Source: a virus
Length of the DNA stretch: 64,000 nucleotides
Reading direction: 5' to 3' (one strand)
Virus record (IMG/VR): IMGVR_UViG_3300042503_001656
Coordinates: 54,037-118,036 of that record
The translations under genes and the position numbers were made by a program. Below, piece by piece: positions 28,918-61,800 of this stretch; the stretch's first letter is position 1; every line of letters begins with the position of its first letter. The notes under the pieces are model-generated. The model was not told where the DNA came from. It did no database searches and worked only from the letters and a program-made list of their open reading frames with translations.

Positions 28918-30575
28918 GGGTTTACAAAATTACCATTATCAAGAATTTCGTCAAAATTCATAGTCGGATTTTGTTTAGCTCTAGCGTAAGCAGCTTCGCG
29001 GCCAGTAACCACAATAACAGAATTGCATTTTGCATTAAATTCTATAAATCCTCTTGCAGCAGCTCGAGTTAAAAAGTCAATCGTAAGTCCTGTCCTTAAT
29101 GCCAAACTTGTACTTGGTTTGGTTCTGCTACACAGCGTTCCTTCTCTTGGAGTACGTGGCGGTAACTCTACAATTGGCGTAAGTTTTGGAAACTCAATAA
29201 GTTTTATTAGTTCTTTCGGATACTCAGTCAATGTTATGTCGCATGAAGCCCTGCTTATTGCCCCAGTTGAACTTCTGTACACAGATGTAACGCTAAAGTC
29301 AGCTATGACAAACAGTGAACCGCTACCCGAGTCTTTGTTAAATGGGTATCTAACGGGTTCTTGTAAGAGTTTGTCAAAACCCATAAACACAACAGGGAAA
29401 GGGCTTGAGGCCATTTGCCTAAGTGTTTTCAAATCGTTATCTACACTTGTTGTTATTACACCGTTGTCAAGCGCCCTATCAAGACTTCCCTCAGCGTTTG
29501 GTGCAACTAAAAAGCTAAACGAAACACTCATTAGCTTGTAAGACTTCCAATCAACCATCGGCCTATTTGCAGCGCGGTCAATTGGCGACCATTCAGAACC
29601 AATGCTTGTATAAGAAATTTGGTTTGGTCTATGAAGAAACTCGTATGTGAGCTGAGGCTGTCCAGAAGTTGTTGTCTGTACAAGTTTTGGCGCTTGGGAA
29701 GTAGAAATAGTTACAGAGCCAGCATTAACTGTTCGACTTAAAGCAGGTGAGGCGACAGTTACCGCTATGTTTTGACTTCTTGGTGTTTGCCTGGCAATTC
29801 TTGCACTTGGCATAATTAATGAATTTGCTGCTCTTGTTGAAAGTGCAGCAGCTGAATTTGCATTTACAAGAGCAATTGCCTCAGCTCTTGTGTTCCCTCT
29901 GGCTATTAGTTCATCAATTTTAGCAAGCCTAATTGATTCTGCAACGTTAGCCATTAAAGATTCGTTGCTTTGACCAGATGTGTCTCTTGTAAATAAACTG
30001 TCAATCAAATATTGACTGTCGGTAAACCCAAAAGTTTCTAAATTTCCAAATGTATAAAATCTATTGTCAAACGGGTGATACCAATATGCAGGAATAATTA
30101 GGTTGCCGTTATCATCGTATGTGTTTGTGTACGTTTGAGGGCTTTCAATCCAAACCTGAATATTATTGTAAGAATATGGATTTGTTGACGCAGGAAGAGA
30201 TGCAGAAACAGGGTATAGCTTTGTTCTGCTTGTTGCAACAAAAAGCTTTGTTCCATAGTACTTATGTGTATAAACACTAAACCTGTCGGGGTAGTACCTG
30301 CGGGTTGGTTTTATGCCTATTTCTGTACGCGGTTCGTATCTTGTTCTTTCGGCGGGAACGTTTTCATCTCCAGGCATATATTGCTTGTACGCAGTGAGGG
30401 CAGGAAGAGGAAGCCAGTATTCAATTTCATTAATTCTTAAATCGGTGCCATTTAAGATGCGTTTGTATAGATGAAAAATTGGATACCCAGGGTACACAAC
30501 ACCAGGACCGGGTTGAGTTTTTCTGACTTCTTTGTAGTAATAGGTTTCTTGAATTGGCTGAGGAGATATAGACAT
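28914..30575 (-). CDS. tail tube/baseplate connecting protein
   Basis: A 553-residue protein just downstream of the tape measure. The C-terminal half has the phrases 'WKSYKLMSVSFSFLVAP', 'MASSPFPVVFMGFDKLLQEP' and 'SCDITLTEYPKE', which match the region conserved in tube-proximal baseplate or CIS-tube/LysM proteins encoded between the tape measure and the hub. The N-terminal half is rich in Tyr and Pro ('YYKEVRKTQPGPGVVYPGYP') and is specific to this phage type. No LysM motif is clear, so the name is positional. Overlaps the hub gene by 4 nt. Confidence 0.6.
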   Translation of the reverse strand: MSISPQPIQETYYYKEVRKTQPGPGVVYPGYPIFHLYKRILNGTDLRINEIEYWLPLPALTAYKQYMPGDENVPAERTRYEPRTEIGIKPTRRYYPDRFSVYTHKYYGTKLFVATSRTKLYPVSASLPASTNPYSYNNIQVWIESPQTYTNTYDDNGNLIIPAYWYHPFDNRFYTFGNLETFGFTDSQYLIDSLFTRDTSGQSNESLMANVAESIRLAKIDELIARGNTRAEAIALVNANSAAALSTRAANSLIMPSARIARQTPRSQNIAVTVASPALSRTVNAGSVTISTSQAPKLVQTTTSGQPQLTYEFLHRPNQISYTSIGSEWSPIDRAANRPMVDWKSYKLMSVSFSFLVAPNAEGSLDRALDNGVITTSVDNDLKTLRQMASSPFPVVFMGFDKLLQEPVRYPFNKDSGSGSLFVIADFSVTSVYRSSTGAISRASCDITLTEYPKELIKLIEFPKLTPIVELPPRTPREGTLCSRTKPSTSLALRTGLTIDFLTRAAARGFIEFNAKCNSVIVVTGREAAYARAKQNPTMNFDEILDNGNFVNP

Positions 30576-33500
30576 TAGATTCTCTCTCTTATTCTCTGCT
30601 CAGTAGTCTTTATCTTTGCCATTACCATGTTTGCTATCTCTTCAGGGTTGTTTTGTCCACCGTTTATATGGAAAGTAAACGAATTTCCTCCTGATGTAAC
30701 AGTAGCCTGAGTTGCTACACCCATTTGGTTAGAAGCTGGAGTCAATGTGTCGCCAAGTGCGCCTGGCCCTGGAACTGCATGAAGATGTCTACCCGCTCCA
30801 CTTCCATGGAATTCGGCAAACCCACCAGCATTACGTGTTGCCACGGCGTAGGAACCAAGGTTTTGACCAACAAGGTCGATTGCCCTACCCGTTACATGGT
30901 CAGAGTTGAGTGAACCAAGACCATATGTTCTATACGAAGAGGTGATTGACCTCTTCCCAGGAATAGAGCTGTTAATAGCCTTGTGCCTATCCATTGTTTG
31001 GCTAAGTCGTGAAGAAGTGGTATCACCGACAACGCCACCACGAGGGGTTGTCGTGTCCGTCTGCATTATTTCTTTCATTGCTTCTTTTGACCACCACTCA
31101 GGTTTGGCTGCTTCTGGACCAAAAGCGGTACTCATATCTCTACTGAATTTTTCAACGGCCTCTTTAAACGTTGTTGATGCTGTTTTCATTTCTTTTGCAA
31201 CAGCGTTTGTTTGGTCAGTATCTTGAGCACGAACTATAAGGCCAGCGTTTGTAACCCCATAATTAGCGAACTGTTGATTGAGAAGCATTCCCTGATAGTG
31301 TGCTTTGCTCTTGGCTCCTTTAGAGGTGTACAATTTCTTTGCTTCTGCGTCCGTCATGTTTGCAAACGGGTCCGTTATTTGGAAAATTCCACTTTCAACG
31401 TCGCTTAGGAATCTTTCTCTATTTTCAGCACTCATTTTAGAAATTGCTTCGTTCATCTTTGTAGTGTTGCCGTACCTCCCCATTCCGCCAAGCATTCCCT
31501 GCACTTGAGCGCTAGCGTTGGATATGAGTCCTTTTTCGGTTTCTGTAGATGTTTTAGTGAGAGCCTCAGTAACTTCCGGTGTAAAAAAATCAGCTGGGTT
31601 AATATCAGCAAATGCGCCACCTGGCTTAAAAAGGTCACCAGGGTTAGCAAGTGTGCCTATCTGTCTCTGTTGGGCATAAAAATCCGTTATCGGGTTGTCT
31701 GTCATTCCTATGGATGACTCTTGAAATGCCCTTAAAGCATTGAGTACAGATAATGTGTCTCCTCCACCCCTAATGGTGTCACCAAGCGCCGTACCTCTTT
31801 CGTCATATATTTCGGGCGCTTGAACTCTTTTTATTATTTCGTCAAAACCAGTAGCTATAGCAGAAAGCGATACGTCTATATTGGCCTCTTTCATTTCTTT
31901 TGCAGTTTTAACCATTGTTAAGCCAAGTTTTTCAACTATGTCAGAAGTCTTGAGTGTCGCGTCGTATAGGTCTACACCCATCTTCTTGGCAAGAACTTCT
32001 ATTTCTGCTCCAGACTTTCCGCTCATGTCTTTGAGCAGCTCCATGCGTGCACCTTGCTGCTTGCTGATTGTGTCTGCTGCTTTAAGCCTTTCAGGAAGCT
32101 CTTTAGAAAGCTTTGTAAGTCCAGCGCCTTTGTCTTTGCTTATGGCTGCCATTTCTTCGGGCGTAATAATTCCTTTAAAGGCTGGGTCTTCGCTTATTTC
32201 TTTGAGTATCTTGTAATCTTTTTCTTGTTTTTTCTTTCTTTCACCTCTACCAAAAAGACCTTTTGTTAAACCTGTAATTCCTCCCACGACTCCACCGAGA
32301 ACTGCACCAATACTTCCAAAGGTAGCTGCTGTTACTAAAGAGCCGATAGGTCCGCCGACGCTTCCCGCTATCGCGCCAGTCGCGACTCCAAGTCCTCCGC
32401 CTATTGCTGCGCCAGTACCCATGCCGCCCTTGGTTTGCTCCCATGTCGACTTTCCGTAGTCTCCGCTAAATCCTCGCTCTTTTAGTGCTTTGCTGAGGTT
32501 TCCGTAAGCTGCAGCAGTTTCTCCAGCTATCCCTTCATATGCTCCCGTGCGCCCAGTCATATCTACACCTGCAGCTGCATCTGCCTCTTGTCGAAGTACT
32601 TTGTCTTTGGCATTCATGATTTGACGAGTGGCTATGCCATCAAGAAATGAGCCCATCGCTTCTTTTGATTCTTTTGCTCTTTGTCTCATTCCTCCAGCAA
32701 AACCAGCAACTGCTCCAGTTATCGCACCAAGAGCTGCACCTACAGCAGTACCAATTCCTGGGGCAATCATTGTTCCAATTGCTGCACCCGCACCAGCACC
32801 GGTCATTGCTCCGCCTGCTGCCGTTCTAGAGTTAAGTGCTGCTCCACCGAGACCAACAGCAAGACCGGCTAGTGGGTTGAATTGACCAACCATTGCACCC
32901 ATAGCCATTGCCCCCTGTGCTTCTGGTGCCATGTACTGAGACGCAACTCCCATGCCTAGGCCAACGCCCATTTTTGCACCCATGCTTCTGTTAACTCCGC
33001 TAATACCTTTTTCATCGTTACCGAGAATTGCGGAACCAAGGGCGCTGTTTCTGCGTGAGCGTGAAGTGAGGCCTGCATATTTAATTTTGTTTCTAAAGGT
33101 TTGACCTTTTGTGTCTACAAAACCTGTTTGTGCGTCATATCTAGCGCCCACCGTGGCTATTCTTTGACCTGTAACCGGGTCTATCTTTCTACTTAAATTA
33201 AGCACTTCACCAGTAGATTCATCTAGTGTCGCAAATCGACGGCCAGTAATTTTTCCTCTAAATAAATCTTGACCAACTCCTGTATTACCCTGTGCTTGTT
33301 GTCTTGAGCCATCGAATATGCGACCCAAAAAGCCTCTGCGGCTGTACGCGCCTTGCGTTCCTGGTCCGCCAGCACCAGGAGGAGCTGTTCCTGGACCTCC
33401 AGGACCGGGCATGCCACCGCCACCACCTGCGCCACCACCTGTTGCGCCGCTAGAAAATCTCGCTGCGTCAATTGGGGAACTAGGGCCTGCTGGAGTCGAG

Positions 33501-35686
33501 TCGATAAACTGATAACCTCGTTGGACCATCATTATTGGTCTAGTGCTGCTTCCGGCAGTTGGTGCAGGCGGGTAAGGTGCTCCACCCTGCCCTGTTCTTC
33601 CAACTTCTCCGGTACCCGGAGTTTTTGCAACAAAAGCTCCCGGATTCCAGTACCGTGTACCGTCTTTTTTGGTTACCCAGTTACCTCTACCGACAAGCTT
33701 TGCGTCAGGGTTAGGGTAATCCTTGCCCCAGGTAATTGGCCTTCCACCCGCATCAACTTCTCCGGTGCGTGTATCTCCAGGCCACCTACGTCCTCCATAC
33801 AAGGGACTACCGTGCGGGTCATAAAGTGGTTTACCCCCTCTTCTTACGGTAACGGGGACGCCTGGTGGAATAGCTGGCGGTCTTTGTGGGCCGATAGGAA
33901 CAGGTCCGGTGGGTATTGGTCTTGGTGGAGTCCCCGGTGGTGTTCCTGGTGGTGTTCCAGGTGGCGTTCCCGGTGGCCCGCCCGGTCCACTTGGTCCTAC
34001 TGGTGGACCTCCAGGCCCTCCTGGTCTTCCACCATTAACAATAACGCTTCTAGCTGTTACGGTCATCGTATTTACTGGTGCGCGCTCTCTGCCCAAAAAA
34101 CCACCAGTATTGCCCTTCATCTGACGGCCCAATATCAAGAGAGCCATATACGCCATTGGCCCTCCGAGAATGCTGCTGAATTTAGAAAGCAAGCCGGTCA
34201 TCATTCCAACAACCTCGGTAATACCTTTAATTACATCGCTCAAAAATGGAAGAGCATCAGAAAATGCTTTAGTAAAAACATCCTGCAATTTAAATAGTTC
34301 TGTTATTAAAGAACCGAGGTTGTTGCCTATTTCTACAAATGTTTCTTTGTTACTGATGGCTCCTTCATTAAAATCTTTGAAAGAATCCAAAAATCCAGAT
34401 TTCAATGCTGAAAGAATTGGTTTGAATATTCCTTCTACGGCCCTTGCGCCTTCAATAAAAGGCCTAAGCTCTTCTCTGGAATTTTTAAACCATCTAGAAA
34501 ACTTCTCCCATCCGCCAGCCATGTTTTTGAAAAATCCATCAGTCTTTGGAAGCCACTCGCGAATAAGCTTTACAAAGAAGTTTGACATTTTTTCGACTCC
34601 GCTTACTATTCCGTCGAAAAAAGAATCATTTCCAAAATCAGAAAGCGCCCCACTTACGCGAACAAGGTCTGTTCTAATAATCCTAAAAATCTTTTGCATT
34701 GCAACTTTGGCTGGCTCAAGAAACTGTTGACCAAAGTCTCCGAACTCAATTTTTAAAAGATTAAAAAATGATTTTGCCTGTCCAATGAGTGTCGAGTTAA
34801 CAGCTTCAAATTGACCAGCAACTCCACCAGCCTTGGCGAGTTCGCCAGACATGATAAGTTCCTTCATCTGCTTCTTGCTGGTTACTTTTGCATCTTTGAG
34901 CGCTTTTTCCATTTGTGGACCAAGCGCTTTTGCGGCTTGTTTAACGCTAGCCATGCTTGTCTTAGAGTTATTGAGAGCCTCAATAAGAGCCCCAACTTTG
35001 TCAGCCGCCGCTGCTGGGTCTTGACCCGCTGCTCCAAAGTCCATGAGGTTCTTAATCATGGCTCCACTTTGTGCAATTTGCGAGGACTTCATCGACTTAG
35101 CCATTGATGCGTAAGCTTTGTTAAGTGCATCAACACCAAGACCTGCCAGCTGAGCATCGGCTTGAAGGGTTCGCATTGCAACACGAACCTGGTTTGTTCC
35201 TGTTATGTATTCCCCTGCTCCACCTGCCGTGTACGCATGCATTGCGGCTTGTTGTTCGCGAATAGCGGCAGTGGCAACTCCAATTGCAATCGCTGCGCTT
35301 GCGGCCGCACCGGCCATGGCTGTCATGCCCCAGGAATAGGCTTTGTGCAACCACTTTCCTGCAATAAATAGAGCATGAATTCCCATTAAAGCAGCAGAAA
35401 ATAAACCAAACTGAAGAAGCGTTGATTTAAGAGCAAGACCCAGGACTTTAGTTAGTCCTGTGCCCATCATTTTTATGCCCTTGTCTACAGAGTCGAACAC
35501 TTTGCGTGTTGCCACGCTGGTGGTTACCAAGCTTTTTGATACAGTTGCTACCGACCTAGCACCACTGCTTAGCTTTTTTCCTTGCCTATCAAGCCTGTCG
35601 ATGGCTTTGCTGAGAGTCCTGACTTCAAGAGCACCCTGAAGGGCACCCTTTACCTCAATATTGACTGTTGCTTCAGCCCTGGACAC
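30575..35686 (-). CDS. tape measure protein with M15-like peptidase domain
   Basis: A 1703-residue protein, the longest in the tail block and directly after the frameshifted chaperones, so the tape measure. It has a GTG start with GAGG 7 nt upstream. N-terminal helices include membrane-like segments (about 80-150). A Pro/Gly-rich linker follows, with four PPGT repeats (about 565-585) and the motif RFSSGATGGG (from residue 743). Two Gly-zipper regions (about 970-1010 and 1095-1120) may be membrane-active. Near the C-terminus 'SDHVTGRAID' (His1597, Asp1604) and 'RHLHAVPG' (His1634, His1636) form an M15-type zinc peptidase site, which could open peptidoglycan during ejection. The RFSSG motif matches those in the polyprotein and suggests processing. 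Confidence 0.85.
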   Translation of the reverse strand: MSRAEATVNIEVKGALQGALEVRTLSKAIDRLDRQGKKLSSGARSVATVSKSLVTTSVATRKVFDSVDKGIKMMGTGLTKVLGLALKSTLLQFGLFSAALMGIHALFIAGKWLHKAYSWGMTAMAGAAASAAIAIGVATAAIREQQAAMHAYTAGGAGEYITGTNQVRVAMRTLQADAQLAGLGVDALNKAYASMAKSMKSSQIAQSGAMIKNLMDFGAAGQDPAAAADKVGALIEALNNSKTSMASVKQAAKALGPQMEKALKDAKVTSKKQMKELIMSGELAKAGGVAGQFEAVNSTLIGQAKSFFNLLKIEFGDFGQQFLEPAKVAMQKIFRIIRTDLVRVSGALSDFGNDSFFDGIVSGVEKMSNFFVKLIREWLPKTDGFFKNMAGGWEKFSRWFKNSREELRPFIEGARAVEGIFKPILSALKSGFLDSFKDFNEGAISNKETFVEIGNNLGSLITELFKLQDVFTKAFSDALPFLSDVIKGITEVVGMMTGLLSKFSSILGGPMAYMALLILGRQMKGNTGGFLGRERAPVNTMTVTARSVIVNGGRPGGPGGPPVGPSGPGGPPGTPPGTPPGTPPGTPPRPIPTGPVPIGPQRPPAIPPGVPVTVRRGGKPLYDPHGSPLYGGRRWPGDTRTGEVDAGGRPITWGKDYPNPDAKLVGRGNWVTKKDGTRYWNPGAFVAKTPGTGEVGRTGQGGAPYPPAPTAGSSTRPIMMVQRGYQFIDSTPAGPSSPIDAARFSSGATGGGAGGGGGMPGPGGPGTAPPGAGGPGTQGAYSRRGFLGRIFDGSRQQAQGNTGVGQDLFRGKITGRRFATLDESTGEVLNLSRKIDPVTGQRIATVGARYDAQTGFVDTKGQTFRNKIKYAGLTSRSRRNSALGSAILGNDEKGISGVNRSMGAKMGVGLGMGVASQYMAPEAQGAMAMGAMVGQFNPLAGLAVGLGGAALNSRTAAGGAMTGAGAGAAIGTMIAPGIGTAVGAALGAITGAVAGFAGGMRQRAKESKEAMGSFLDGIATRQIMNAKDKVLRQEADAAAGVDMTGRTGAYEGIAGETAAAYGNLSKALKERGFSGDYGKSTWEQTKGGMGTGAAIGGGLGVATGAIAGSVGGPIGSLVTAATFGSIGAVLGGVVGGITGLTKGLFGRGERKKKQEKDYKILKEISEDPAFKGIITPEEMAAISKDKGAGLTKLSKELPERLKAADTISKQQGARMELLKDMSGKSGAEIEVLAKKMGVDLYDATLKTSDIVEKLGLTMVKTAKEMKEANIDVSLSAIATGFDEIIKRVQAPEIYDERGTALGDTIRGGGDTLSVLNALRAFQESSIGMTDNPITDFYAQQRQIGTLANPGDLFKPGGAFADINPADFFTPEVTEALTKTSTETEKGLISNASAQVQGMLGGMGRYGNTTKMNEAISKMSAENRERFLSDVESGIFQITDPFANMTDAEAKKLYTSKGAKSKAHYQGMLLNQQFANYGVTNAGLIVRAQDTDQTNAVAKEMKTASTTFKEAVEKFSRDMSTAFGPEAAKPEWWSKEAMKEIMQTDTTTPRGGVVGDTTSSRLSQTMDRHKAINSSIPGKRSITSSYRTYGLGSLNSDHVTGRAIDLVGQNLGSYAVATRNAGGFAEFHGSGAGRHLHAVPGPGALGDTLTPASNQMGVATQATVTSGGNSFTFHINGGQNNPEEIANMVMAKIKTTEQRIRERI

Positions 35687-35754: not shown

Positions 35755-36458
35755 TCATTGCCTAGATTTGCGTTCCTGCTCTTCGCGGTCGTTACTTATT
35801 ACTTTAGCACAAGCAAGCCTTATGAGCCATTCAGTTTCTGTTGAATCCAGAAGCCTAATGGGGTCGGTTCCGAACAGTTCACCTAGTCTGGCCGCAGATA
35901 TGACCAGAGGGTCTTCAACTAGTTCGTCGAAGACCCCTTCGTAGGGTCCTCTACGTCAACCGAGTCTGAATATCCTGCGGCGTCAAGGATTGAGAGAGCT
36001 GCTGCCTCGATGTGCGGGTCAACACCGAAAAACTCTTTAACGCAGTCTGGGAGTGGACGGGTTGTCCCTGTCATCTCCAAAATAACTGCTGAAGCAAAAG
36101 TTAATTCGTGTCCAGCATCATCAAACACTTCTTCGTCATCGAAAAGTATTCCGATAGTCGTGTGGCCGATAACTGAACAAGCAAAACGTGTTCCGTCCAT
36201 GCCGTTACGAGTATCTTCACCAGCTTGCTTACGCCAGTTCTTCATCTGGTTCTGTGTAATGTTCGGGCTAATCTTGATTTTTACACCAGGACGCTCAGGA
36301 ACAGGAATAAGAACAACAGGGCGTTCAACTTTGCGCTTAACAACGCCGGTCAGCTTTTGAAGTGGTGTTTCCTCTACGGAAGCAGCAGCTTTAGCCTGTC
36401 TGGCTTTCGGAGAAGAATCTTCTGTGGATGTTGTGTAGAGTTCAGAGTTTTCTGTCAT
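35755..36458 (-). CDS. tail assembly chaperone, -1 frameshift fusion (GT-type)
   Basis: The reading frame 35919-36458 continues in the -1 frame after the codons AAG GGG (slip at 35934-35937) into about 59 further codons, ending at a TGA at 35755-35757. The extension reads as a normal acidic then basic protein ('VFDELVEDPLV' ... 'STETEWLIRLACAKVISND') and reaches almost to the tape measure. The arrangement, an upstream product ending shortly after the slip and a fusion product before the tape measure, is the conserved G/GT chaperone system of tailed phages. The fusion would be made at a low ratio and coat the tape measure during tube assembly. Confidence 0.75.
35909..35939 (-). promoter_or_regulatory. 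programmed -1 frameshift site and hairpin
   Basis: On the minus strand the sequence AAGGGGTCTTC is followed by a perfect 8-bp inverted repeat, GGGTCTTC (35929-35936) and GAAGACCC (35909-35916), with a 12-nt loop. Slippage by -1 on the G-run joins the 179-residue frame to the GT-type extension. The 5' arm of the hairpin overlaps the slip site, so the exact role of the hairpin is uncertain. Confidence 0.6.
35919..36458 (-). CDS. tail assembly chaperone, unshifted form (G-type)
   Basis: A 179-residue protein between the tube gene and the tape measure. The N-terminal 30 residues are disordered; the rest contains 'LIPVPERPGVKIKISPNIT' and 'KEFFGVDPHIEAAALSILD', an acidic helical chaperone with no enzyme motif. 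Position and the overlapping -1 extension identify it. It is the major product when the ribosome does not slip. The RBS before the ATG is weak. Confidence 0.75.
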   Translation of the reverse strand: MTENSELYTTSTEDSSPKARQAKAAASVEETPLQKLTGVVKRKVERPVVLIPVPERPGVKIKISPNITQNQMKNWRKQAGEDTRNGMDGTRFACSVIGHTTIGILFDDEEVFDDAGHELTFASAVILEMTGTTRPLPDCVKEFFGVDPHIEAAALSILDAAGYSDSVDVEDPTKGSSTN

Positions 36459-36515: not shown

Positions 36516-36995
36516 TCAGCCAGCTGCGCCAGCGCCGGACTCAACGTCCGAGATGGCAAATGTTAGCGAGAAAGTTGCAGGTGCGCCCGAAGATGAGTCA
36601 CCGTCTGGCTCGGTAATGCCAACCAGAAGGGCCTTGTAATAAACTCGGTCTGTGCCTGGAACCTTAAGGTCGCAGTCAGTCGTTTCGATGGTTATGTCAT
36701 AAGAAGCGCGACCAACCAATGGACGAAGTGTTGCAATCTTTTCTGCAATTCCGGTAGGGCCGTCTGCTGCAATTCTGTCGTCATCATAATGAGCGGTTAG
36801 GGTGATGTCGCCGACCTCAGATGGAGCGCAAAGAACTGTCGGGCGGAGCTTGCCACCTTCGTAGATTTTTTCTACAGATGCGGTTATTTCTCCACCAGAA
36901 ACTTGGGCGAAATAGAAACCGGTCCATTTCGGGTGCTTTGTTGGCTCTACTGGATTAATAGAGGCGAGTACTTGGCGTTGAGATACCTTTGGCAT
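36516..36995 (-). CDS. tail tube protein
   Basis: A 159-residue protein immediately after the sheath gene, with beta-rich phrases ('GDITLTAHYDDDRIAADGP', 'YKALLVGITEPDGDSSSGAP', 'ATFSLTFAISD') typical of the tail tube family of myoviruses of actinobacteria. It polymerises around the tape measure to form the inner tube. A good AAGGAT RBS precedes the ATG. It is followed by the chaperone pair, the standard gene order. Confidence 0.8.
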   Translation of the reverse strand: MPKVSQRQVLASINPVEPTKHPKWTGFYFAQVSGGEITASVEKIYEGGKLRPTVLCAPSEVGDITLTAHYDDDRIAADGPTGIAEKIATLRPLVGRASYDITIETTDCDLKVPGTDRVYYKALLVGITEPDGDSSSGAPATFSLTFAISDVESGAGAAG

Positions 36996-37009: not shown

Positions 37010-38542
37010 TTAGACGACGCTGGAGGTCAGATTCGACTTAATGATGTCAACCTCAATCTTGTCACCGACGCTGCTGGTTCGAACACCAACTTTTGCCTTG
37101 ACAGTACCGCCAGCAAGCTGGGTTACCGGATTGAGAGCTGAGTCGCATCGTACGGTGTAGCCATTGTCAACCTTCTTGCCATTGGCATCAAATGCCTGGA
37201 AGAGAGCGCCCTGCTCACGGAGTGGAGCAAGGATGGCTATCAGTCTCGATGTGATTGCAGAGAAAATAGTGTCTCTACCGTCGATTACACCGAACACAAG
37301 GTCTTCAAGTGACCTTTGTGACTCAACAACAATGTGGTTGATGATTTCTTGAGTTGTGATATAACGGAAGTTTTCTGTATCGATAGAAAGCGAACGAGCA
37401 CCGTAGATTCTGACAGAGTTTTGAATTATTCTAATTGCATTGATATTTTCAGAATCAAGAGAATCACCAACGGTCTTGTTGATGTCCAATGCTGTTCCGG
37501 ATACATATCGTGAGTTAGAAATCAAACCAGCTGCTGGAATATGTGCTCCACCCTGGTTGTGTGCCTGGGCACGCTTAGCAGCAACGTAACCATCTGGTGG
37601 GATGGTCTTGCTGAGGCCATTGGTTGATGTTGGAACGGTAACCCATGGGAAGTAGATAGCTGCATGCTCAAGGCCCTCAAGGAGCTTGATGTCATCAGCC
37701 TTAGAAATTGCATTGGCAGCCGTGTCAGCAACGCCACAGTGCAAGATTGCTATTCTGTTGTTTGCATTTGCGTGCGCAATAAGAGCAGCAGAAACTTCAA
37801 AGTCTGATTTGAGTGTTCCGTCGTAGTCTGTTGCTGGGCCTCCCGATGAGGCGAGGGTTGCTGTTTCTCCGTCTGGAATTGCAACAGCTCCTGCACCAAG
37901 AGAGTCATTGAAGGCTTCAAGACCAGCAATCAAAACAGCATCGTCAACACCAGCAAGGTCATCGGAGCCTGTTGAAAGAGCTGTTAATGAAATTGCTGCC
38001 GGTATCTGGCTTACGCCAACTGCTCCTGCATCTGGGCCCAGTTCAGCAACTACATAACGTGAAGCGACACTGCTTGAGTTGATTCGCCCAACAGCCTGTG
38101 CAAGAGATGTAACAACACCAGTGTTATATACAGGGTTGCCATCATATTCAATAATTACAGCGAATGCTGAACCTGGATTGGTAACAGTCACGCCAACTTC
38201 CGCGCTCCAGTTTCCAGGACCAGTTGCTTTAAGGATAAGCAAAGAGTCTTCGTCTTCGTTTTCAAGAACAAGCTCTCCTACTGCGGCGTCTTCGCCAGCA
38301 ACCCTGGAAACATAGACCTGGGTGCCACCCTCTTCAAAGAACGTCTCTACCGTTGGGTGAAGGTATGACCAGGCTACATAGCCGCCAAAAATGTTTTCAA
38401 ATTCTGTGAGGCTCTGAACAAGAACTGCTTCACCTACTGGTCCGCGTTCTGCTAGTCCGACAACAAAAAGCTGCGAAGATTCGCGCACTGTCGCGGAAGA
38501 TGGGCCTGTTCTGACTGCTGTGGAGATAACTACGCCTGGCAT
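37010..38542 (-). CDS. contractile tail sheath protein
   Basis: A 510-residue protein of the phage sheath (XkdK/FI-like) family. It starts 'MPGVVISTAVRTGPS', has the early phrase 'LFVVGLAERGPVGEAVLV' with 'FENIFGG', and 'VYVSRVAGEDAAVGEL' in the first third. The C-terminal half carries 'ISNSRYVSGTALDINKTVGD' and 'SLSIDTENFRYITTQEIINH', typical of sheath subunits. This is the defining gene for a myovirus morphology. AGGAAGG lies 4 nt before the ATG, and a 126-nt gap upstream with a TACAAT box may hold its own promoter, as expected for a very abundant protein. Confidence 0.9.
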   Translation of the reverse strand: MPGVVISTAVRTGPSSATVRESSQLFVVGLAERGPVGEAVLVQSLTEFENIFGGYVAWSYLHPTVETFFEEGGTQVYVSRVAGEDAAVGELVLENEDEDSLLILKATGPGNWSAEVGVTVTNPGSAFAVIIEYDGNPVYNTGVVTSLAQAVGRINSSSVASRYVVAELGPDAGAVGVSQIPAAISLTALSTGSDDLAGVDDAVLIAGLEAFNDSLGAGAVAIPDGETATLASSGGPATDYDGTLKSDFEVSAALIAHANANNRIAILHCGVADTAANAISKADDIKLLEGLEHAAIYFPWVTVPTSTNGLSKTIPPDGYVAAKRAQAHNQGGAHIPAAGLISNSRYVSGTALDINKTVGDSLDSENINAIRIIQNSVRIYGARSLSIDTENFRYITTQEIINHIVVESQRSLEDLVFGVIDGRDTIFSAITSRLIAILAPLREQGALFQAFDANGKKVDNGYTVRCDSALNPVTQLAGGTVKAKVGVRTSSVGDKIEVDIIKSNLTSSVV

Positions 38543-50173: not shown

Positions 50174-52252
50174 ATGGCATGGAACGCTTCAACGAACAAG
50201 TCGCTGAATAATCAAGCACAAAAAGACATTGGACCTGGAGCACCAGTAGCCCAAAATCCCGGCTATGCAGGCAAGCCGTACAGGGACTCCTGGGATATTG
50301 AGCGTGCCTATAGAGAAGGCATGCAGAAGGTTACATGGGTGTCTAGGTGTATCGATGCCATTGCTGGAAACCAGGCAAGACTGCCGATAATACTCAGAAA
50401 AGACAACTCACCTCATGGTGAAATTCTTTCAATCAGAGAGTCAAAAAAGACAAATCTTCTTAATATTCTAAACTCAAAGTCTAATGTTGGAGAAAACTCC
50501 TACATTTTTAGATACAGACTTTCTGCTCAGTTGATGCTTGGCACCAGGGGTGCTTTTATTGAAAAAGTAAGAGGACGAGACGGCGGAATAATTGGCCTCA
50601 ACCTATTACCTCCTCAGTCAACCTCCCCAATACCAGACCCTAAAAAGTTTGTTTCTGGCTACGAAGTTCAAATGCCCACAGGAAACAAGGTCTACCTGAA
50701 GCCAGAAGACGTTTGCTGGGTGAGAAGACCTCACCCAATCGACCCATACTTGTCACTGACCCCATTGGAGGCCTGTGGCGTTGCGATTGAAATAGAAAAC
50801 CTGGCAAAGCTTTACAACAGAAACTACCTATTAAACGACGGTAGACCGGGTGGTTTGCTTGTTCTTCGTGGAGAAATCGACGACGACGACAAAGAAGAAT
50901 TGAGAAGCCGTTTCCGTGGAAACCTTTCACGCGCTGGATATACCTCTGTAATCGCTTCCGACGACGGTGTTGACTATGTTGACACTTCAGCAAACCCAAG
51001 AGACGCTGCGTACATACAGATGCGTCAAATAACAAAGGAGGAAATCCTTGCTTCATTTGGTGTTCCAGAGTCGGTTATCGGTAATGCTGCTGGTAGAACT
51101 TTTAGCAACGCTTCGGAAGAAATTCGTGTCTTTTGGATGGAGACGATGCTTCCCCATTTGGAGATTCTTTCACGGGCTCTAGATGAACTAGATGAAGACA
51201 ACTATGTTGACTTCAATGTTGACCAAGTGCCCATTTTGATGCTTTACGAGCAGGAGCGCCACCGCTACTTGATGGACGAATTCAACGCAGGTCTTATCAG
51301 CAATAACGAGTACAGAATAGGCTCAGGTCGCAAAGAAACAGAAAGCGACCTTGCTGACTCGCTCTTGGCTAATCCAAACCTTATTCCTATTGCAAATACG
51401 AAGAAGAAGATGGAAGAGCCTTCTCAGGCACAGGTTCCAGGGGCACCAGGACAGCCTGGGATGCCCGGAATGCCTCCAGGTGCACCCGGCATGCCTCCGA
51501 TGCCAGGAATGCCTCCAGGACCGGAAGCACAGCCAGCACTTGACCCAAATACGATGGCTGGGGCAATGGCAGAAGTATCTGGAGCACAAGCAGGTGGAGA
51601 ACTGGCACAATCTCCAATCCCAGGAATGCCTCCAGGAATGATGACCGGAGCAGAGCCAGTACCTCCTGGTGCTACCTCTGCTGAGTCGCCAACCATAATG
51701 ACAAAAGACGCCCTCGAAGCAATTTCCCAAAAGCAAGAAATCGAAAGATGGGAAGAGATACTTGTCAGAAGCATGGAAAGAGTCATGGAAAGACAACAGC
51801 GTGTTGTTCTTGAGAAGTCAAGTGGAGCAAAAGCAAAGAAGGCTTTGTTTGCTGGAACCCTAGATATCCCATCTGTGCTTCACTCAGAGACATGGGATAG
51901 GCAATTCGATGAGGACATCAGGCCGGTAATTACGGCCATAGTCAAAGAATCGTTAAAAGCTTCTACATCAATCGAGAAAAAGTCCGCGAAAAGTTGGGAA
52001 GTAGAGTCTGACATCATTGCTCAAGTTGATTCTCAAATGTTACGAATCAAGAGCTTAAACCAGGATTTGACAGAGGAAATTACTTCCCTCATGTTGTCTT
52101 CTCTGAATGTTTCTGACGAAGACCAGCGAGCTGGCGCTTTTAGGTCAAACATCGTGTCTTTGTATACAAATGTGTTGGCAAAACGGCTTCCGGAGATAGC
52201 TAGCGAGGAATCTAGGCGTGCCTGGACTTACGGAAAATTCATCGCTAGATAG
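50174..52252 (+). CDS. portal protein with long disordered C-terminus
   Basis: A 692-residue protein of the HK97-type portal family: 'VTWVSRCIDAIAGNQARLP' at the start, 'YRLSAQLMLGTRGAFIEKVR', 'LLPPQSTSPIPDP', 'LEACGVAIEIENLAKLYNRN' and 'RQITKEEILASFGVPESVIG' in the usual order to about residue 430. The rest is an unusual extension of about 260 residues with PGMP/PGAP-type repeats (about 420-460), then a helical C-terminal domain ('RSMERVMERQQRVVLEKSS'). The same PGMP repeat is found in the following protease protein, so the two may interact. It forms the DNA entry ring of the head. Confidence 0.9.
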   Translation: MAWNASTNKSLNNQAQKDIGPGAPVAQNPGYAGKPYRDSWDIERAYREGMQKVTWVSRCIDAIAGNQARLPIILRKDNSPHGEILSIRESKKTNLLNILNSKSNVGENSYIFRYRLSAQLMLGTRGAFIEKVRGRDGGIIGLNLLPPQSTSPIPDPKKFVSGYEVQMPTGNKVYLKPEDVCWVRRPHPIDPYLSLTPLEACGVAIEIENLAKLYNRNYLLNDGRPGGLLVLRGEIDDDDKEELRSRFRGNLSRAGYTSVIASDDGVDYVDTSANPRDAAYIQMRQITKEEILASFGVPESVIGNAAGRTFSNASEEIRVFWMETMLPHLEILSRALDELDEDNYVDFNVDQVPILMLYEQERHRYLMDEFNAGLISNNEYRIGSGRKETESDLADSLLANPNLIPIANTKKKMEEPSQAQVPGAPGQPGMPGMPPGAPGMPPMPGMPPGPEAQPALDPNTMAGAMAEVSGAQAGGELAQSPIPGMPPGMMTGAEPVPPGATSAESPTIMTKDALEAISQKQEIERWEEILVRSMERVMERQQRVVLEKSSGAKAKKALFAGTLDIPSVLHSETWDRQFDEDIRPVITAIVKESLKASTSIEKKSAKSWEVESDIIAQVDSQMLRIKSLNQDLTEEITSLMLSSLNVSDEDQRAGAFRSNIVSLYTNVLAKRLPEIASEESRRAWTYGKFIAR

Positions 52253-52322
52253 TTTTAGTATTTAGTTTTAGTAAACGACGCTAAAAACCTGAATACTTGC
52301 GGTTTCCATTGGTATTTTCGTT

Positions 52323-52328
52323 TATTAT
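52323..52328 (+). promoter_or_regulatory. candidate -10 for the polyprotein gene
   Basis: TATTAT, 22 nt before the ATG at 52351, in the 98-nt gap after the portal. An AAGGAG RBS follows at 52336-52345. No good -35 is seen. Confidence 0.3.
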
Positions 52329-52350
52329 CGAAGAAGACACAAGGAGTCAC

Positions 52351-52875
52351 ATGTCCTCTTCTAATAAAAAATCCGACATTCAGTACAAGGCTGCACCGCA
52401 AGGAATGGTGAATTTAGACGAGGCCCAAGGCATCGTCGAATGTTTTGTCGCTGGGATAGGCAACAAAGACTCTGTTGGTGACGTTTGCGCACCAGGGGCT
52501 TTCGGCAAGAGTCTTACCAGAAGGAAGCCACGAGTCGTATGGGGACACAACTGGAACGACCCCATTGGCAAGGTCATCGACATGTACGAGGTTCCACCCA
52601 ACGACCCTCGTTTACCAGCAAAGATGAAGGCTGCAGGAATTGGCGGTCTTTATGCTCGCGTTCAATTCAACCTTATGTCGGAAAAGGGTCGTGAGGCGTT
52701 TGCCAATGTTGCTTTCTTTGGTGAAGAGCAAGAGTGGTCTATTGGTTACAAAACAATCAATGCAAAATTTGACCCACAGATGCAAGCAAACATTCTTTAT
52801 GAAGTAGAGCTTTATGAAGTGTCTCCAGTTCTTCATGGAGCAAACCAGCTGACAGGAACAATTTCAGTAAAGTCA
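52351..52875 (+). other. S78 prohead protease domain
   Basis: Residues 1-175 have the family phrases 'AQGIVECFVAGIGNKDSVGD', 'RKPRVVWGHNWNDPIGKVI' (catalytic His66), 'EEQEWSIGYKT' (Ser130) and 'LYEVSPVLHGAN' (acid near 156). This is the HK97/P22-type capsid maturation protease. It normally cuts scaffold and capsid N-termini inside the prohead and here heads a 3846-residue protein. Residue numbers are counted from the ATG at 52351; the catalytic assignment is by family pattern. Confidence 0.85.
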
Positions 52876-55800
52876 GAAGAGCAGCCATCTGGCGTTTCAG
52901 TAATTAATGCACCAAGCATTGATGGGTTAAACGTAAATGAGCTTTCTTCTATTCTTGAAGCACTTAAGGCTATTTCTTCTTCCGTTTCAGAAGACGAAAA
53001 GTGTGGACCAGGAATGATGCCACAAGGAATGCCAGGAATGCCTTCTGGCGGACCAGGTATGCCTTCTGGGCCGAAGCCAATGCATACAAACACTCCTGGT
53101 GCAGCACCAAGAGAAGTTGTTAAACCACAAATTCCATCCATGCCAGAAAACCCAATGACCGTAGCGCTTCGCCGTGAACTCGCGACTCGCACTGGCTCAA
53201 ATGTAATTGTGCGTTCAGCAAGTGACAGTGTCGTCGTTTTTGACAGGGTGCTGGCTGACGGAACATCAAGCACATACAGATTGCCTTTCCACTATGCCGG
53301 TGGAGAGTTTATGTTCGGCAAGCCAGAAAAAGTTCAGTCTCAAGCAAACTACGTCCAAGATTCTCCTTTGTCTGAAATCATGGTTGAAGCGCTTCTTTCT
53401 GGCCCCACTGCAGGCGCAGAAAAGTCTTTAATCTCTTTTGACGACCAAGAGTGGGGTGAAGGATTTGGGCAATCAATTCCGTCACAGCAAGTTGATGCTT
53501 CAACTTTGAATAGCGTTATCGCTAATCTTCAAAAAATAATCGAGCAGAAATCTGAATATGTTGTTCAAGTTGCTCCAGAACATGCTTTTGAAGTAAAGCA
53601 AGCGATAGACCCAATTCTTGATTTCTACAAGGTTGACGCAACCATCAATGAAGATGGAATTGTTGTTAAGTCACTCAATGAAGACTTTTTGAACGCTCTT
53701 GACATCGCCACAAAAGGCGTATTACGCAGTCTTGGCAACCTTGCGGGTAGAGCAATAGACCGCCCTAATATTGGCAGAAACAGAAGAGACAGAACACCCA
53801 ACCTTGCATCACGAGGCCCTGGAATTGGTTCACGAGGAGCGGTAGTAAGACTCCGTGATGGAAGCACGTGGGACCCAAAAAACGCACCGGATAGAAACCG
53901 TAATGGCATTGTAGGTGAAGGCCTCTTTGACAGTAGCGGAAGGTCGTTGGCACAGCCAGACCCAACACCAGAGGGGCCAGATTCTATCCGGGGAGCAAAG
54001 ACACCAAAGTCACCGCAGACCCCTAAAAGGCAGGCAGCGGCTGCCGCAAAAAGAAACGCTACTGTAAAAAGAACTTCTGGGCAGCCCCAGAAAGCAAGGC
54101 AGCGTCTTTCTTCAGGCGGAATTGACCAAGAAGTTGACGATACACCAATGCTTGAGGAGAAGTTCAAGAAGGAAGTCTCTGGCTTTTTGTCTGAAATAGG
54201 AACAAACCGTAATGAGATAGAAAACATTCTTGACCTGTGGGAAAACAACGATGCAGACCATGACAAGTACATGGAAGAGCATGGAGCTGGTTCAAAAAAC
54301 TTTGCTGAAAACGTGGCTTATGCAGCGTCAGCAATGTACGAAGACTACATCTCTGATGCGGGAGATAGGCAGGCTGACCGTCGTGCCGAGGGAGGGCGTT
54401 TCTCGTCTGGCGAGTGGACAAAAATTCCTGGTGTTGGCTATGAGATGGATGCCCCAGACATTGAAGGTGTTTATGAAATACAGGAAGGCCTTGACGGGAA
54501 GTTCTATGTAGTCAGATACTCCGATGGCAACCGTAATGGTGGCCAAAACATGGGCATATATGAGCATGATAAGCCTTTCTCTACTCTTGCAGCAGCAAAG
54601 AAGTGGTCTGAAAAAGACTATGCGCAAGCAGCTGATGAATATATGCCAGATGGCATGGAGGATGCAGATTCAGAAGATGGCGAAAGGTTCTCTTCTGGTC
54701 AAATTGACTTCGACAAGATAGGCGAATCGGGCCTCAGAGAAATGCGCCATGTTGAGCGCAACCCTCTTAGATTTGATACACAGGCAGACAAAGATGCACG
54801 CGCTGCGTACGAACGGGTTGTAGCAAACTTTAGAGCAAACAACGGTTTCTTCCGTGAAGTACCTATGTATGCAGGTGACAAAAAGTGGCACAGCGAAGAC
54901 TGGTTCCGTGGCCGCGAGATGGCAGAAAACGTTGCCACCTTGCGATTTGGTGACCCAATTGACCAAATGCCGTTCTTCGATAAACCAGGCAAGCCATCAA
55001 AAAGAGAATTCTTCGAGAGAACTACAACTGTTGATTACAGGTCCTGGTACATGGCAAAAATTCCAGCCATGACGCAAGAGTTGGACAGAGTGCTTGCTTC
55101 CGACGCCTATTCAGATGAATACAAAGAAGCATTCCTAGAAGGAATGAGGACATTCTTCTACGTGAATAGGCCAAACCTTCAGTACGCTCCGAAAGATACA
55201 CAGGCGCAGTATGAAGAATGGCTTCAGCGTTCAGGTCTCGGCTGGAAGGGTAGATACTCTACTTCTGGTCCAAAATTCGAAGACATGGAAACAAACAGAT
55301 TTTCTTCTGGTGCTACAGGTAGAGATAACAAGGTAATTGAGTCTTACGAAAACGTTGACGACCTCAAAGAAGCAATGTTTAGTGCTCTCTGGGAAATGTC
55401 ACTAAAGGGTGACATTGATGGTGTTACGGCAGAAGAACTTGCAGATGCGATTAGCGTAAATACGAACTGGGTAGAACCACATCTTGAAGATGTAAAGAAT
55501 TACGCGCTTGATGCAAGAAGAAGTATGGATGAGTATTACTCTTCCATTCCTGAGCTAACCGACGAAGAGATGGACCAGGAATACAGGGACTGGCTGGATT
55601 CACAGGCTGGCAAAGACAGCGCTCGTGCCATGACTATTAAAGAAAAATTCGACAGCATGACCGACGAAGAGGCAGCTGATTATGTTGCTTGGCTCGAAGA
55701 AGAGACATGGAGAGACAGAAGCGATACGTACTTCTCATCTGGAGAAAGAGGAACCCCTGAAGAGAGGGTAGAGCTCTATAACAGGAGAGCCTCTGAAAAG

Positions 55801-58800
55801 AATGCAATTCTTGAGTCCATGACACCAGAAGAGCTTGCAGAATATGCAGAGCAGTGGAATGAAGACCATCGCGAAGATGAAAGATTCTCGTCTGGCCAAG
55901 TCAATAGACCGAAGTCAACAAAAACCGGAGAAGAGTTTATTGGCCGTAGCTACGGTCTTCATGATTTTTTTGTTTACGACGAAGAAGACGATTTTGAGAA
56001 TATTGACAAGGCGATTGTAGATTCACTTCTCAAAGGCGAAAGAATGTCCCTTGATGACCTTCTGCTTGAAGTGCGAGGCATCAATGACCCCGACCTCAGC
56101 GGAGAAGCACTGGTCCGCAGACCAGACCAAATGGGCGCAAACGCAAGACGCGTTGCTGAAGCTGTTGCAAACAATACATCCGTTAGTCCATCGTTGGCCA
56201 ACCAGAAGGCTGGAAGGGAAGACATACTTCACTTTAGTTACAATGGTAAACAGCGTTCTATATACCCAGAGACTTTTTCAACAAGCAAAAAGGGTGTTGG
56301 CTATTTTGTTGGCTGGGACGAAACCGCAGATAACGGCAATGGCGCATATAGAAGTTTCAATATAGACAAAATAGAAGGCCTTATATCTAGCGCAATACCT
56401 CCACATGTAGACAGGGCAGCAAGGTATACAGATTATTCATGGAACATAACTGACTTCTCTGATGAAGATAATCAAAAAATTCTTGAACAGATGCGACGTA
56501 CTAAAGAGTTCAGGGTTCTTGATGACGCGCAAGACCTGATAGACGATGAGGTGAGCGCAGGAGGCACAAGAGTTGCAGGCTCGACTCTTGATATTGCGGA
56601 AAAAGAAGCCCAAGCAGCTTTCCAAGATGCTCGCAATAGACAAATTGACAAGATGGTTGCCGACGGCAAAATTAAGCCGCTATCAAGAGATAGTAGATTC
56701 TCTTCAGGAATGGTTAACGACGGTCTTCCAGACGGATACTGGGACACCGCAGACGACATGGCAGATTCTTATGGCGACAGAGAAGACTACACAGACGCAA
56801 GGTTCTCCTCTGGTGGAATGCCAAGCACTAAAGAGCAAGCAGACCTAATAGCTTTTGCTAGGTCAAAGCCTGGCACTTTTACAGACAGTGTTGTTTCTCA
56901 ATTTGACAGAAACAGAAGACTGTCAGAAAAGCAATGGGACGCAATACGTAGAATGATGCGCGGTGCATCTGGTGGTAAGGCTGCTCCAAAAGCAGATAAG
57001 CCAACTGCTCGTTTTTCTGGAAAGCGTCGTCAAATTGTAGATATTGCCGATATTGAAAAGTATGACTACCCAGAGCTTCCTGCAAAGATAAAGCCAACAC
57101 CAGAACAAGACAGAGCTATCGATGCGATGATGACTGGTGCAGACGTAAAGATTGGTGCTTTAGCAGCAACAGGCAAGACGACAACTGTCATTAACTTTGC
57201 CAACCGCCTCAAGGCTAAAGAACCAGACGCAAGGGTTGTCTATCTCGTGTTTAACAGAAACGCAAAAGACGACGTAGAAAAGCGTGGAATGCCAGGAAAC
57301 GTTTCTGTCTCAACGATGGACGGAATTGCTTACAGAGCAATGGACGCTATCAACCCAGAAATGACCAAGAAGAGCTTTGACAAAAAAGAGGGCCACATAA
57401 AGCCAATCAACTCTTTCAAAGATAGAGCTAAGTATCTTGGTACAAAGGGAATGGTTTCCCAAGGCGAAGAATTGACCGATGTTGATGTTTATAGAATTGT
57501 AGCTAAAGCGATAGATGCATATTCAATAAGCGACGACAAGGAAATTGGACCACAACACTTTACTGGCCCATACAACGGTTCATACAAGGTGACAGACACT
57601 TCATTGCTTCCCGAGTTGCTTAAGTATGCAAACAAGATGTGGGAAGACATGAATCTTCCTAGAGTCAATGGTGCCACCAGGAAAGACCAAAAAGGAATGC
57701 TTCCTGTAAACAACACACATCTAACAAAGATGTGGGCATTGACAAATCCAGACATAGGCGAAATTGCTGAAGTCAATGTAGCAATGGTTGACGAAGCTCA
57801 AGACATGAACCCAGTTTTTGCTGGAATATTGAGGAACTCAAACCTTCAGAAAATCTACATTGGTGACACAAACCAGGCAATTAACGCATGGCGTGGAGCA
57901 GACGGAACAACGCTTGCAAATGTAGAAGCAACATACGACATGCCAATTACTGATTCGTTCAGATTCGGCAAGAACGTAGCGAACATGGGCAACAGATTCC
58001 TTTCGCTTCTCAATACAAAAGAGCGCATGACCGGAAGAAAGACAGACAAGTCTGGAAATCCTGTTGACGGAAGAATTGGACAGGTTGATAACCCAACAAT
58101 GATTTTGACACGCTCTAATGGCGGAGCCATCGCTGCAACCATGGAAGTGTTTGCAGATGGTGGAATTGTTTACGGAAGCCAAAACTTCAAGAGAGATTTG
58201 GAGAACTTCTTAAACAACATCGAATGGATGCAGAATGCCCAAAAGGGCAAACCGTTCTATACAGACGTATATGGAAAGCAAGTATTTTCAGCTCCTGAGT
58301 TCAGTCAAGACCTTGACGGAATTACAAACATTGCAGACTTCAATAAGGCTATTGAAAAGGGCGATGACAACAGACTAAACATGCTTTCTAAGCTGATGAA
58401 CGATTACTCGCTTGAAGACTTGAGAGAATCTCTCAACAACATCATTACAGACAAAAACAAGCTTCCAAAAAATCGTGATGAGTATGTTCACATTCAGACA
58501 GCCCACACATCCAAGGGTCTTGAGTCGCCACGAGTCAAGATTTGGTCAGACTTTAGAAAGCCAAAGAAGCTTGAGAACGGTGAATGGCAATACCCTGATG
58601 AGCAGGAGATGAGGCTTTCTTATGTTGCCGTAACAAGAGCAGAGGAAGAACTTGACCTTGGTTCACTTAGTTGGATTCTTGACCACACAACAGAAGAAGA
58701 CGGTATGCCAAATACTTTCTCTTCTGGAAGAAGCAAAGCAAGAGGCAACAGGGGTGATGGCAAGGGAAGACAAAAACCATGGTCGGCAGAAGATAGGCAA

Positions 58801-61800
58801 AGATTTGCGGACAGGGACATTCTTCGTTCACAAACACGCCCAGGAAAGCGTCGTCCAGGTCCTTCAGCAAACGAATTCTCGTCTGGTGCTGAATTTGATT
58901 TCACTCCAGAAGAGCTCAATAGGTGGCAAAAAGCTAGCGAACATGCCAGCGCATATGGCGATTGGGAAAATCTTCCAGAAAACAGAAAAAACGGATATCT
59001 TCGTAAATTTAACGGAGATGAAAATCTTGCTCGCGAGCAATTTAACGTGGAAAGAGATTTGGCAGACTTTGCTGCAGATGCACAATTCGACAAAACAAAT
59101 TCACGATTCTCTTCTGGAGGCCGTTTCGCACCACAACCGCAAGCACCAGAGGGCTGGGAAATGCCAGAAATTGGTGATGACGGCGAAATAAAGAATGGAC
59201 CGCTTAAGGGTTACTACATTCGTGAATTCGGTGACCCTTTTGTACCAGGAAGAAAGTACGTAAGCTATGGTGGCACACACTACAGCACTACCGATGAGCA
59301 CAAAAATACCCTAGTTGAATGGGGTGACTACGAGCCTGGCTACACCATCGACAGAAACATAGGCTCTGACGAAGACATTAGGGGTATTGCTGACTCTTCC
59401 GAGCAAGAAGAAATGGCGCAGTATGGCGACGAAGGTTTGTACTATGGCAATAGTTCACGTGGGCGATACGACCCTCAAAATGATTATGAAACTTCAGTAA
59501 CCGACGACTCCCATTCACCAGAAAACGGTGAAGACCACATCGGTAAAGCCGTATCCGTAACGGATGAAAATGGAAACAAATTCTACGGTGTAGTTGTTAG
59601 AGGTTGGGAACCGGAATACGAAGAAGACTTAGATGTTGATGAGGATGGGTGGGCAACCCCGAGCATGAACATACAAGACGGTGGCATGGTAGTTCTCGCT
59701 ACTCATGATGCTGACGGCAAAAAACTTGATAAACCAGTAGTTGTTGAGGCAAGTTTTGGTCTTGAAAATGAATACGCCCTCGTATCAAATGTTGAGAGAG
59801 GTGGAGACGATTACGAAGGGCCAAAGGTCAATGTATCAAAAGGCCGTGTAAGTGAAGAAACCCTTGACGAAGCCAAAAAGCTTTATGAAGAACTGGACCC
59901 ATATAGAAATGGTAAAGCCGACGAGTTCAGGCGTCAAGGAGCCTTGATAGATAGAACATGGAGAATGCCGGGAGGCGAAAAAGAGCGCAGGGAAAAAGCT
60001 GCCGAAGAAGCTTACAGAAGAAGCCCTGAAGGAATACAAGAGCAAAGAGAAAAGCTAGAAGCATCCATATCGGCTATAGAAGACAAGATAAGAAGCGCGG
60101 AGTCTTCTCGTGAATCTCTCATGGAGAGGCTGAACGACGTTTCTGAAAGTGGAGACAATGTCCTTGCTTCAAAAATGGAAGAAATATTAAGAGACAGAGA
60201 GGGAGCGGTACGACTCCTCCAAGAAAAACTTGAAGAAGCAAAAGCTGAACTAGATGCTTTTAATGGCGAAGGAAACAGGCTTTCTTCTGGAAGATTTGCG
60301 CCTGATGGACAATCGGGTTCAAGGCTTCAAAGAAGACTTTCTTCTGGCGATGTTTTTGGCCCACCACCAGGACAGTCGGCAAGATATGACCGCAAGAAGC
60401 AAGTCGAAGCAACGATGGGTGCATTCCACTCTGACCCAGGAATGGCTCGTGTATCTAGCGACGCAGAAGGCATTTTAGGAAAGATACCTTCTGGCAAGAA
60501 CTCGCATGTTCTTAACCTAGAAGCAGCAAAGAGAATAATTGCAGACCCTGACGGTGAGTATTCAGCAGAAACTGGATGGCCAGTTGATGCCGGAAGACTG
60601 CTTGATTTTATTCAAATTGATAACCCTCTTGGTGGAAGCCCAAGCACTCTTCGTGACAAAGACGACGCACAACTTATTGCAAGGGTTTTGGGTATACCAG
60701 CATCGGACGCTCAAGACATGCTTGATGGGAAGCCTGTATACATTGCCAGCTCAACTGCGGCTGACATGTTTGACAACCTTTCAAGAACAAAAGAGTACAC
60801 ATCAAGCGTTGGTGGATTAAACGACGTAGCGAGAGTTTGGGGATTTGATGGCGCTCCAAAGTGGGTGCGTCATAGCGACATTGCTACCCCCGAGTTTGAC
60901 CTCGATGAAAACGACAGAGTTAACTGGTCGCAGGTTAAATGGGATGGCCTCTCAAGGGCTGACTTTGATGCAGCAGTAAGAAGAGGGAACAACCCACCAG
61001 AACCCGTATACACATCTCCTGTTGAGTTTTTCAATAGTGATGCAATCGCCAGCAACCCCAAGTGGGACGCTCGTGGTGGCTCATTCAGGAACCCAACAGT
61101 CGATGCTGAGTTCACTGCAACACCAAAGAAGGTTTCCAGAGCCGAACAGTTGGAGCCAGAAAGATTTGTTTCTCAGGCAAGAGCTGGAGAAAGGGTTGCG
61201 CGCGCTGACAAAGATTTTATGGACGAATGGACCAACGGAAGTCATGGAATTGGTGCAGCACAGCTCATGCAGATGCTTGGATTGGAAAGAGATTCAGAAG
61301 GAGACCGCATAAGTAGCCAAGACGTAAGAAAGCTTCTTGACGAAATAAACAAGATTAAAGAAGAAGCTGGAAGCGGACTTGTTCCTGCTGCAAAGAGAGA
61401 AGATGGCAAATTTAAAGAATCACTTGAGCTGGACACAAAGAAGTCTCCAATCAATGATGAAATAATGCATGCACTCATTGTCTCTGGAAGATTCAAGAAC
61501 ATGAAAGAAGCAGTTGCTTCGCTTGGTGACCCAAGACTTGATTCTCTTGCCGCAGAATACGACTCCCGCATGCTTGTCGATGCAGCATTCATAAGAATCA
61601 AGGACCATCTAAACAAGGTTGGAGCAGCTGACCAAAAGAAGATTCTTTCTAAGGTAATCACTGCCGCTCTTGGTCGCAAGACAACACTTGAATCTCGCGT
61701 ACAGGAAGGCAGAGCATCCATCAAGGGTGTAATGAATTCAGACGCAATGATTGGCGATGAAAAGCTTTCCGAAGTAATTGGCATGGTCAACGAGGTTCTT

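Follow-up and report, generated by a model that had tools for sequence, protein, structure and literature searches.

The motif in the tape measure protein

The locus described here raises the question of why a tail protein and a giant polyprotein of the same phage should carry the same short motif, and which enzyme might act on it. It lies in a 64,000-nucleotide stretch of the viral record IMGVR_UViG_3300042503_001656 (positions 54,037 to 118,036; hereafter the window), in which the first-pass annotation had placed the sequence RFSSGATGGG at residue 743 of the minus-strand tape measure protein (TMP), within a Pro/Gly linker, and had pointed to an eight-residue identity with one site of the plus-strand polyprotein. 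Both statements are borne out by translation (Table 1), the polyprotein site reading RFSSGATG. The linker location also holds, since an AlphaFold2 prediction for TMP residues 1-900, of low confidence (mean pLDDT 38.6) and suited to rough secondary structure only, gives helix from residue 13 to about 520 and coil around residue 743. The linker motif is encoded by AGA TTT TCT AGC GGC. Relative to the polyprotein site, codons differ at the second serine, the glycine and the following alanine (AGC GGC GCA against TCT GGT GCT), so that neither is a simple DNA copy of the other.

A second TMP site, KLSSG, which is absent from the earlier annotation, lies close to the N-terminus. Its residue S41 is invariant among 11 TMPs, with K38, S40 and G42 conserved in at least 90% of them. 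Throughout the 118-kb record (G000), matches to [RK][FL][SA]SG in long reading frames are confined to the polyprotein and the TMP, and the sole other match falls in a short 96-aa frame within the polyprotein gene. A lone ETFSSGSTE in a 698-aa protein (window 19748-21844, minus strand) is probably due to chance, because the other open reading frames (ORFs) of the relative G017 gave no site.

Conservation in related tape measure proteins

Relatives were taken from viral contigs, and sites of the form.[FLM][SA]SG were counted against values expected from sequence shuffles. In a first set of 15 SSG-type TMPs, the N-terminus (first ~62 residues) holds 14 sites where 0.15 are expected and the variable linker 16 where 0.77 are expected, with the form kept in the linkers of all 15; the remaining 18,308 residues hold none, compared to 5.3 expected. 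The same two positions stand out in a held-out set of 32 further distinct TMPs (<85% identity), found via C-terminal peptide patterns free of the motif: 25 sites at the N-terminus (0.29 expected), 33 in the linker (2.1 expected) and 8 elsewhere (10.1 expected). Strong avoidance of the motif in the rest of the protein is thus seen for the first set, and weak avoidance for the held-out set. The linkers diverge widely in sequence and in length (approx. 109 to 502 residues), and the position of the site within them varies, yet nearly all keep one; inheritance of an alignable segment therefore does not explain its presence. Codons for the linker motif also vary among orthologues (e.g. AGA TTT TCT AGC GGC, AGG TTC TCT TCT GGC and CGA TTC TCT TCA GGC), which, together with the codon differences between TMP and polyprotein, demonstrates selection on the amino acids. 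Conservation of a linker motif in related phages, which the first-pass annotation had named as a check, is therefore strongly positive and repeated in the held-out set.

Sites in the giant polyproteins

The polyprotein of the window combines unrelated conflict and DNA-processing domains with ArdC and MPTase-PolyVal domains in one chain, as is characteristic of polyvalent proteins. In this and five relatives' polyproteins, all 93 sites fall outside Pfam domains, where domain coverage would predict 20.9 inside, and each of the six has a site 4-13 residues ahead of ArdC, even the one in which ArdC comes before the helicase. This layout is that of putative processing sites between cargo domains. 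In the polyprotein L100 (G016), the ArdC/MPTase and helicase modules stand in swapped order relative to that of the window, with the motif still between them.

Across three long contigs (148, 119 and 91 kb), two polyproteins together with the TMP, which has exactly two in each case, account for nearly all sites, and the remaining ORFs contribute 5 in total where 10.8 would be expected. The second giant polyprotein (G001, 68953-79503; 3517 aa), encoded downstream of the first, features a DnaQ/RNase T exonuclease and 7-9 sites. It is also found in L022 (23471-31888) and L102, and falls past the end of the record analysed here; the TMP of the G001 contig is 100% identical to that of the window. 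Between the two polyproteins lies a 520-aa acidic ORF (G001 67454-69013; L022 21972-23531), the C-terminal part of which is similar to the C-terminal tail of the short protease of the type found in Gordonia phage GMA6, as if a cargo insertion had split an ancestral protease gene.

Coordinated change of the motif

Polyproteins outside the SSG group repeat other motifs: GLAST in L064, GFSSST and GFASRT in L072 and L078, GFASN in L087, and GLRSS or GLRS in L060, L062 and L076. Most TMPs of these relatives carry the matching version at the same two places. The GLAST type is paired with a TMP (G026) that has GLASS/GLASA in its linker; the GFSSST/GFASRT type with TMPs that have GFASST at the N-terminus (G028) or GLASST and GFASRT (G029); and the GFASN type with one that has TFASAS and GFASSS (G034). 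For the GLRSS type, the TMP of the L060 contig has GMRSST at residue 53 and GLRSST at residue 587. When each TMP was scored with the polyprotein matrix of every genome, own against others (15 genomes), the true pairs won, with none of 20,000 permutations reaching the observed value (p<5e-5) and p = 0.013 within the non-SSG group, values that kinship among the phages inflates. The switch of motif between groups is the strong part of this co-variation. Together with the conservation of the sites, it supports the suggestion of the first-pass annotation that the TMP is also processed if the motif is a cleavage signal.

A candidate protease

The polyprotein starts with a domain of the S78 prohead protease family (PF04586), scoring 37.5 bits against a curated cut-off of 21, and such a domain exceeds the cut-off in 16 of 16 relatives' genomes, in each case at the start of the ORF with the motif array. 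The segments VWGHN and EWSIGY of the window protein correspond to VWHHN and EWSIGY in GMA6, and presumably hold the catalytic His and Ser expected of S78 enzymes. On these grounds the S78 protease probably recognises and cuts the motif, freeing the cargo domains and cutting the TMP twice. The motif would then mark where the phage's own enzyme recognises or cuts its substrates, and this enzyme, either within the polyprotein or freed from it, would cut some 16 sites between cargo domains. At the TMP, an N-terminal cut would take off approx. 40 residues, and a cut at residues 743-747 would detach the C-terminal half, with its glycine-rich segments and M15-like domain, from the helical rod. The mature tail would hold separate TMP pieces, allowing the putative wall-degrading and membrane-active half to leave the tube independently of the ruler, and one enzyme would ready all proteins that exit through the tail. 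With somewhat less confidence, we also favour the broader proposal that the head maturation protease is a general virion-processing enzyme, acting on cargo and TMP alike, with all its cut sites co-evolving with a drifting preference.

The major capsid protein, the classical substrate of S78 proteases, displays a partial match near residue 95, about where the delta domains of HK97-type capsid proteins end: QLSSR, HLSSR or QLTSR in the SSG group, and LGSS, LGAS and similar in others (compared in G001:85900-87231, G024, G017, G016 and G028). This is suggestive only of a possible third, degenerate substrate site.

Several observations weigh against cleavage by the S78 enzyme. Cleavage, the exact bond, S78 as the cutter, timing and function are what we infer from sequence patterns. 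The capsid protein matches the motif just partially at the place where a cut would be expected. S78 proteases are known for their action within proheads, and contractile tails of myoviruses assemble apart from heads (PMC10052503), which makes access to the TMP the weak point of this reading; the protease would have to be active outside the prohead, or to meet the TMP after the joining of head and tail. Moreover, the substrates reported for the prohead protease of SPN3US are head proteins (PMC10052503). Some TMPs depart from the pattern: L008 has KLSSS in place of the motif, L210 and L254 are without the linker form, and L209, L226, L248 and L252 are without the N-terminal form. The N-terminal site is predicted to lie within a helix (AlphaFold2, low confidence). 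The co-variation reaches p = 0.07 within the SSG group alone, the TMPs of G025 and G030 fit their own polyprotein motif poorly, and the kinship mentioned above also counts here. Finally, the family has no cultured member, the TMP giving no match among 50,697 phage records.

Alternative explanations

The sites may instead be cut by another protease, such as MPTase-PolyVal or a host enzyme acting after ejection. Cargo and TMP are both predicted to be ejected through the tail, and their processing could thus occur in the host cell; MPTase domains have been proposed to release the parts of polyvalent proteins (Iyer et al. 2017, PMC5512222), and in T5 the host takes part in tail protein cleavage (Zweig and Cummings 1973, as cited in PMC10038345). 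Nevertheless, MPTase-PolyVal was found in 5 of 16 genomes and in none of the non-SSG ones, which have motif arrays of their own. It is therefore disfavoured as the cutter, with the caveat that some of the 11 contigs without it are fragments. The drift of the motif with phage lineage favours a phage enzyme, and is not what a shared host enzyme would predict; the presence of S78 on the same chain throughout also speaks against another protease, which we consider unlikely.

Alternatively, the motif could serve as an uncut binding or sorting tag of tail passengers, recognised, for instance, by the portal, by a tail chaperone or by the protease acting as a scaffold. Every carrier is a predicted tail passenger (head cargo polyproteins and TMP), and two fixed sites per TMP would suit docking points. 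Such a tag would need neither 16-21 copies between domains and total avoidance of domain interiors, nor the absence of sites from the remainder of the first-set TMPs, and a protease on the same chain suggests cutting, so that a tag appears similarly improbable, if anything slightly more so. Chance, a low-complexity composition of the linker or a recent exchange of DNA between the genes for polyprotein and TMP could be invoked for a striking single eight-residue match in a linker rich in G, S and P, and is ruled out for practical purposes by the shuffled linkers, the recurrence in held-out TMPs, the differing codons, and an N-terminal site outside any such linker.

Comparison with known systems

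TMP cleavage is already known from lambda, in the protein gpH, and from T5; a head protease that carried it out would be new. Proteases of the T4 type cut after E, not at [FL]SS. Among open papers, none was found with the motif, and none describing a prohead protease that cuts a TMP. More generally, processing of TMPs has been described as common (PMC1796659). In T5, cleavage of the TMP pb2 after R1127 parts a peptidoglycan-degrading domain from the rod (PMC10038345), much as proposed here; it is a single C-terminal cut with host involvement, unlike the two sites of the present phages, which share their motif with S78-headed polyproteins.

The polyproteins resemble P1 DarA/DdrB and other polyvalent proteins (Iyer et al. 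2017, PMC5512222), in which ArdC, helicase and MPTase-PolyVal domains likewise occur in a long chain, and which presumably are packaged and ejected, with embedded peptidases releasing them (PMC5512222). They differ in the N-terminal S78 domain and in the co-evolving motif that recurs in their linkers and is shared with the tape measure, and the wording "tape measure" is absent from PMC5512222. S78 enzymes of the same Pfam family are encoded near head genes in HK97 (gp4) and in GMA6, the capsid protein of which is 50-53% identical to that of the present phages. GMA6-type protease genes encode approx. 500 aa without cargo domains, whereas here the protease stands at the head of polyproteins of approx. 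1000-4700 aa, with a motif that extends to a tail protein. A parallel to one phage protease acting through one short motif on many ejected proteins is gp245 of SPN3US (PMC10052503), which differs in its reported head-protein substrates.

Genomic context

The TMP gene lies in a tail cluster in the order sheath, tube, chaperone, TMP and further tail genes, and the protein is long, with a helical rod and a gene adjoining that of the chaperone, as expected of a tape measure. The rod is followed by the Pro/Gly linker (residues ~525-860), a glycine-rich C-terminal half and an M15-like domain. For the M15 peptidase site claimed by the first-pass annotation, the presumed ligands H1597, D1604, H1634 and H1636 are invariant in 16 TMPs and fit the zinc-ligand pattern HxxxxxxD ... 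HxH, but the Pfam match to Peptidase_M15_3 (E = 0.001, 19.7 bits) is below the curated cut-off of 23.2, and comparison of the region with the PDB gave no match; M15 identity is weakly supported. Searches of GTDB genomes led to two metagenome bins whose assigned phyla differ, precluding a conclusion on the host.

Two further features of the window were noted. A small protein encoded in the head-tail gene cluster (40458-41144, minus strand) ends in a long tail of PAKKA/AKKAP repeats, similar to histone H1-like DNA-binding tails, and a PAPS reductase gene and two ParB-like genes lie inside the structural region (41226-44105, minus strand).

Table 1. Position in the window of the tape measure and polyprotein genes, their motif sites and adjoining genes.
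Feature	Position	Strand	Residues	Remarks
Tape measure protein (TMP)	30575..35686	minus		1703 aa, GTG start at 35686; ORF and translation, tail gene neighbourhood, homologues
M15-like metallopeptidase domain	30707..31129	minus	TMP 1520-1660	TMP C-terminus; Pfam Peptidase_M15_3, zinc-ligand pattern; weakly supported
TMP linker site RFSSG(ATGGG)	33446..33460	minus	TMP 743-747	RFSSGATGGG = 743-752
TMP N-terminal site KLSSG	35561..35575	minus	TMP 38-42
Tail assembly chaperone gene	35919-36458			adjoins TMP gene
Tail tube gene	36516-36995			TMP neighbourhood
Sheath gene	37010-38542			TMP neighbourhood
Portal protein	50174..52252	plus		directly upstream of polyprotein; PF04860 E = 3e-48
Giant polyprotein	52297..63891	plus		3864 aa, 16.[FLM][SA]SG sites
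S78 prohead protease domain	52432..52863	plus	polyprotein 46-189	PF04586 E = 3.3e-9; phrog_3244 head maturation protease
UvrD-type helicase			polyprotein 1602-2119
ArdC N domain			polyprotein 3492-3612
MPTase-PolyVal			polyprotein 3641-3766
16 polyprotein sites	54103..62760	plus		starts 54103, 54397, 54685, 55297, 55729, 55882, 56695, 56800, 58714, 58873, 59104, 60277, 60334, 61903, 62002, 62746
Polyprotein site RFSSGATG	55297..55311	plus		matches TMP linker site over eight residues

Implications

If the S78 protease does act on both proteins, head and tail maturation, which are usually separate pathways, would be joined via one protease, and there would be a precise, testable answer as to the identity of the enzyme that cuts a tape measure and the position of its cuts. 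Mapping of S78 specificity could start from the natural motif classes RFSSG, GFASS and GLRSS, and the co-evolving motif allows substrates and their limits to be predicted in phages that are not in culture.
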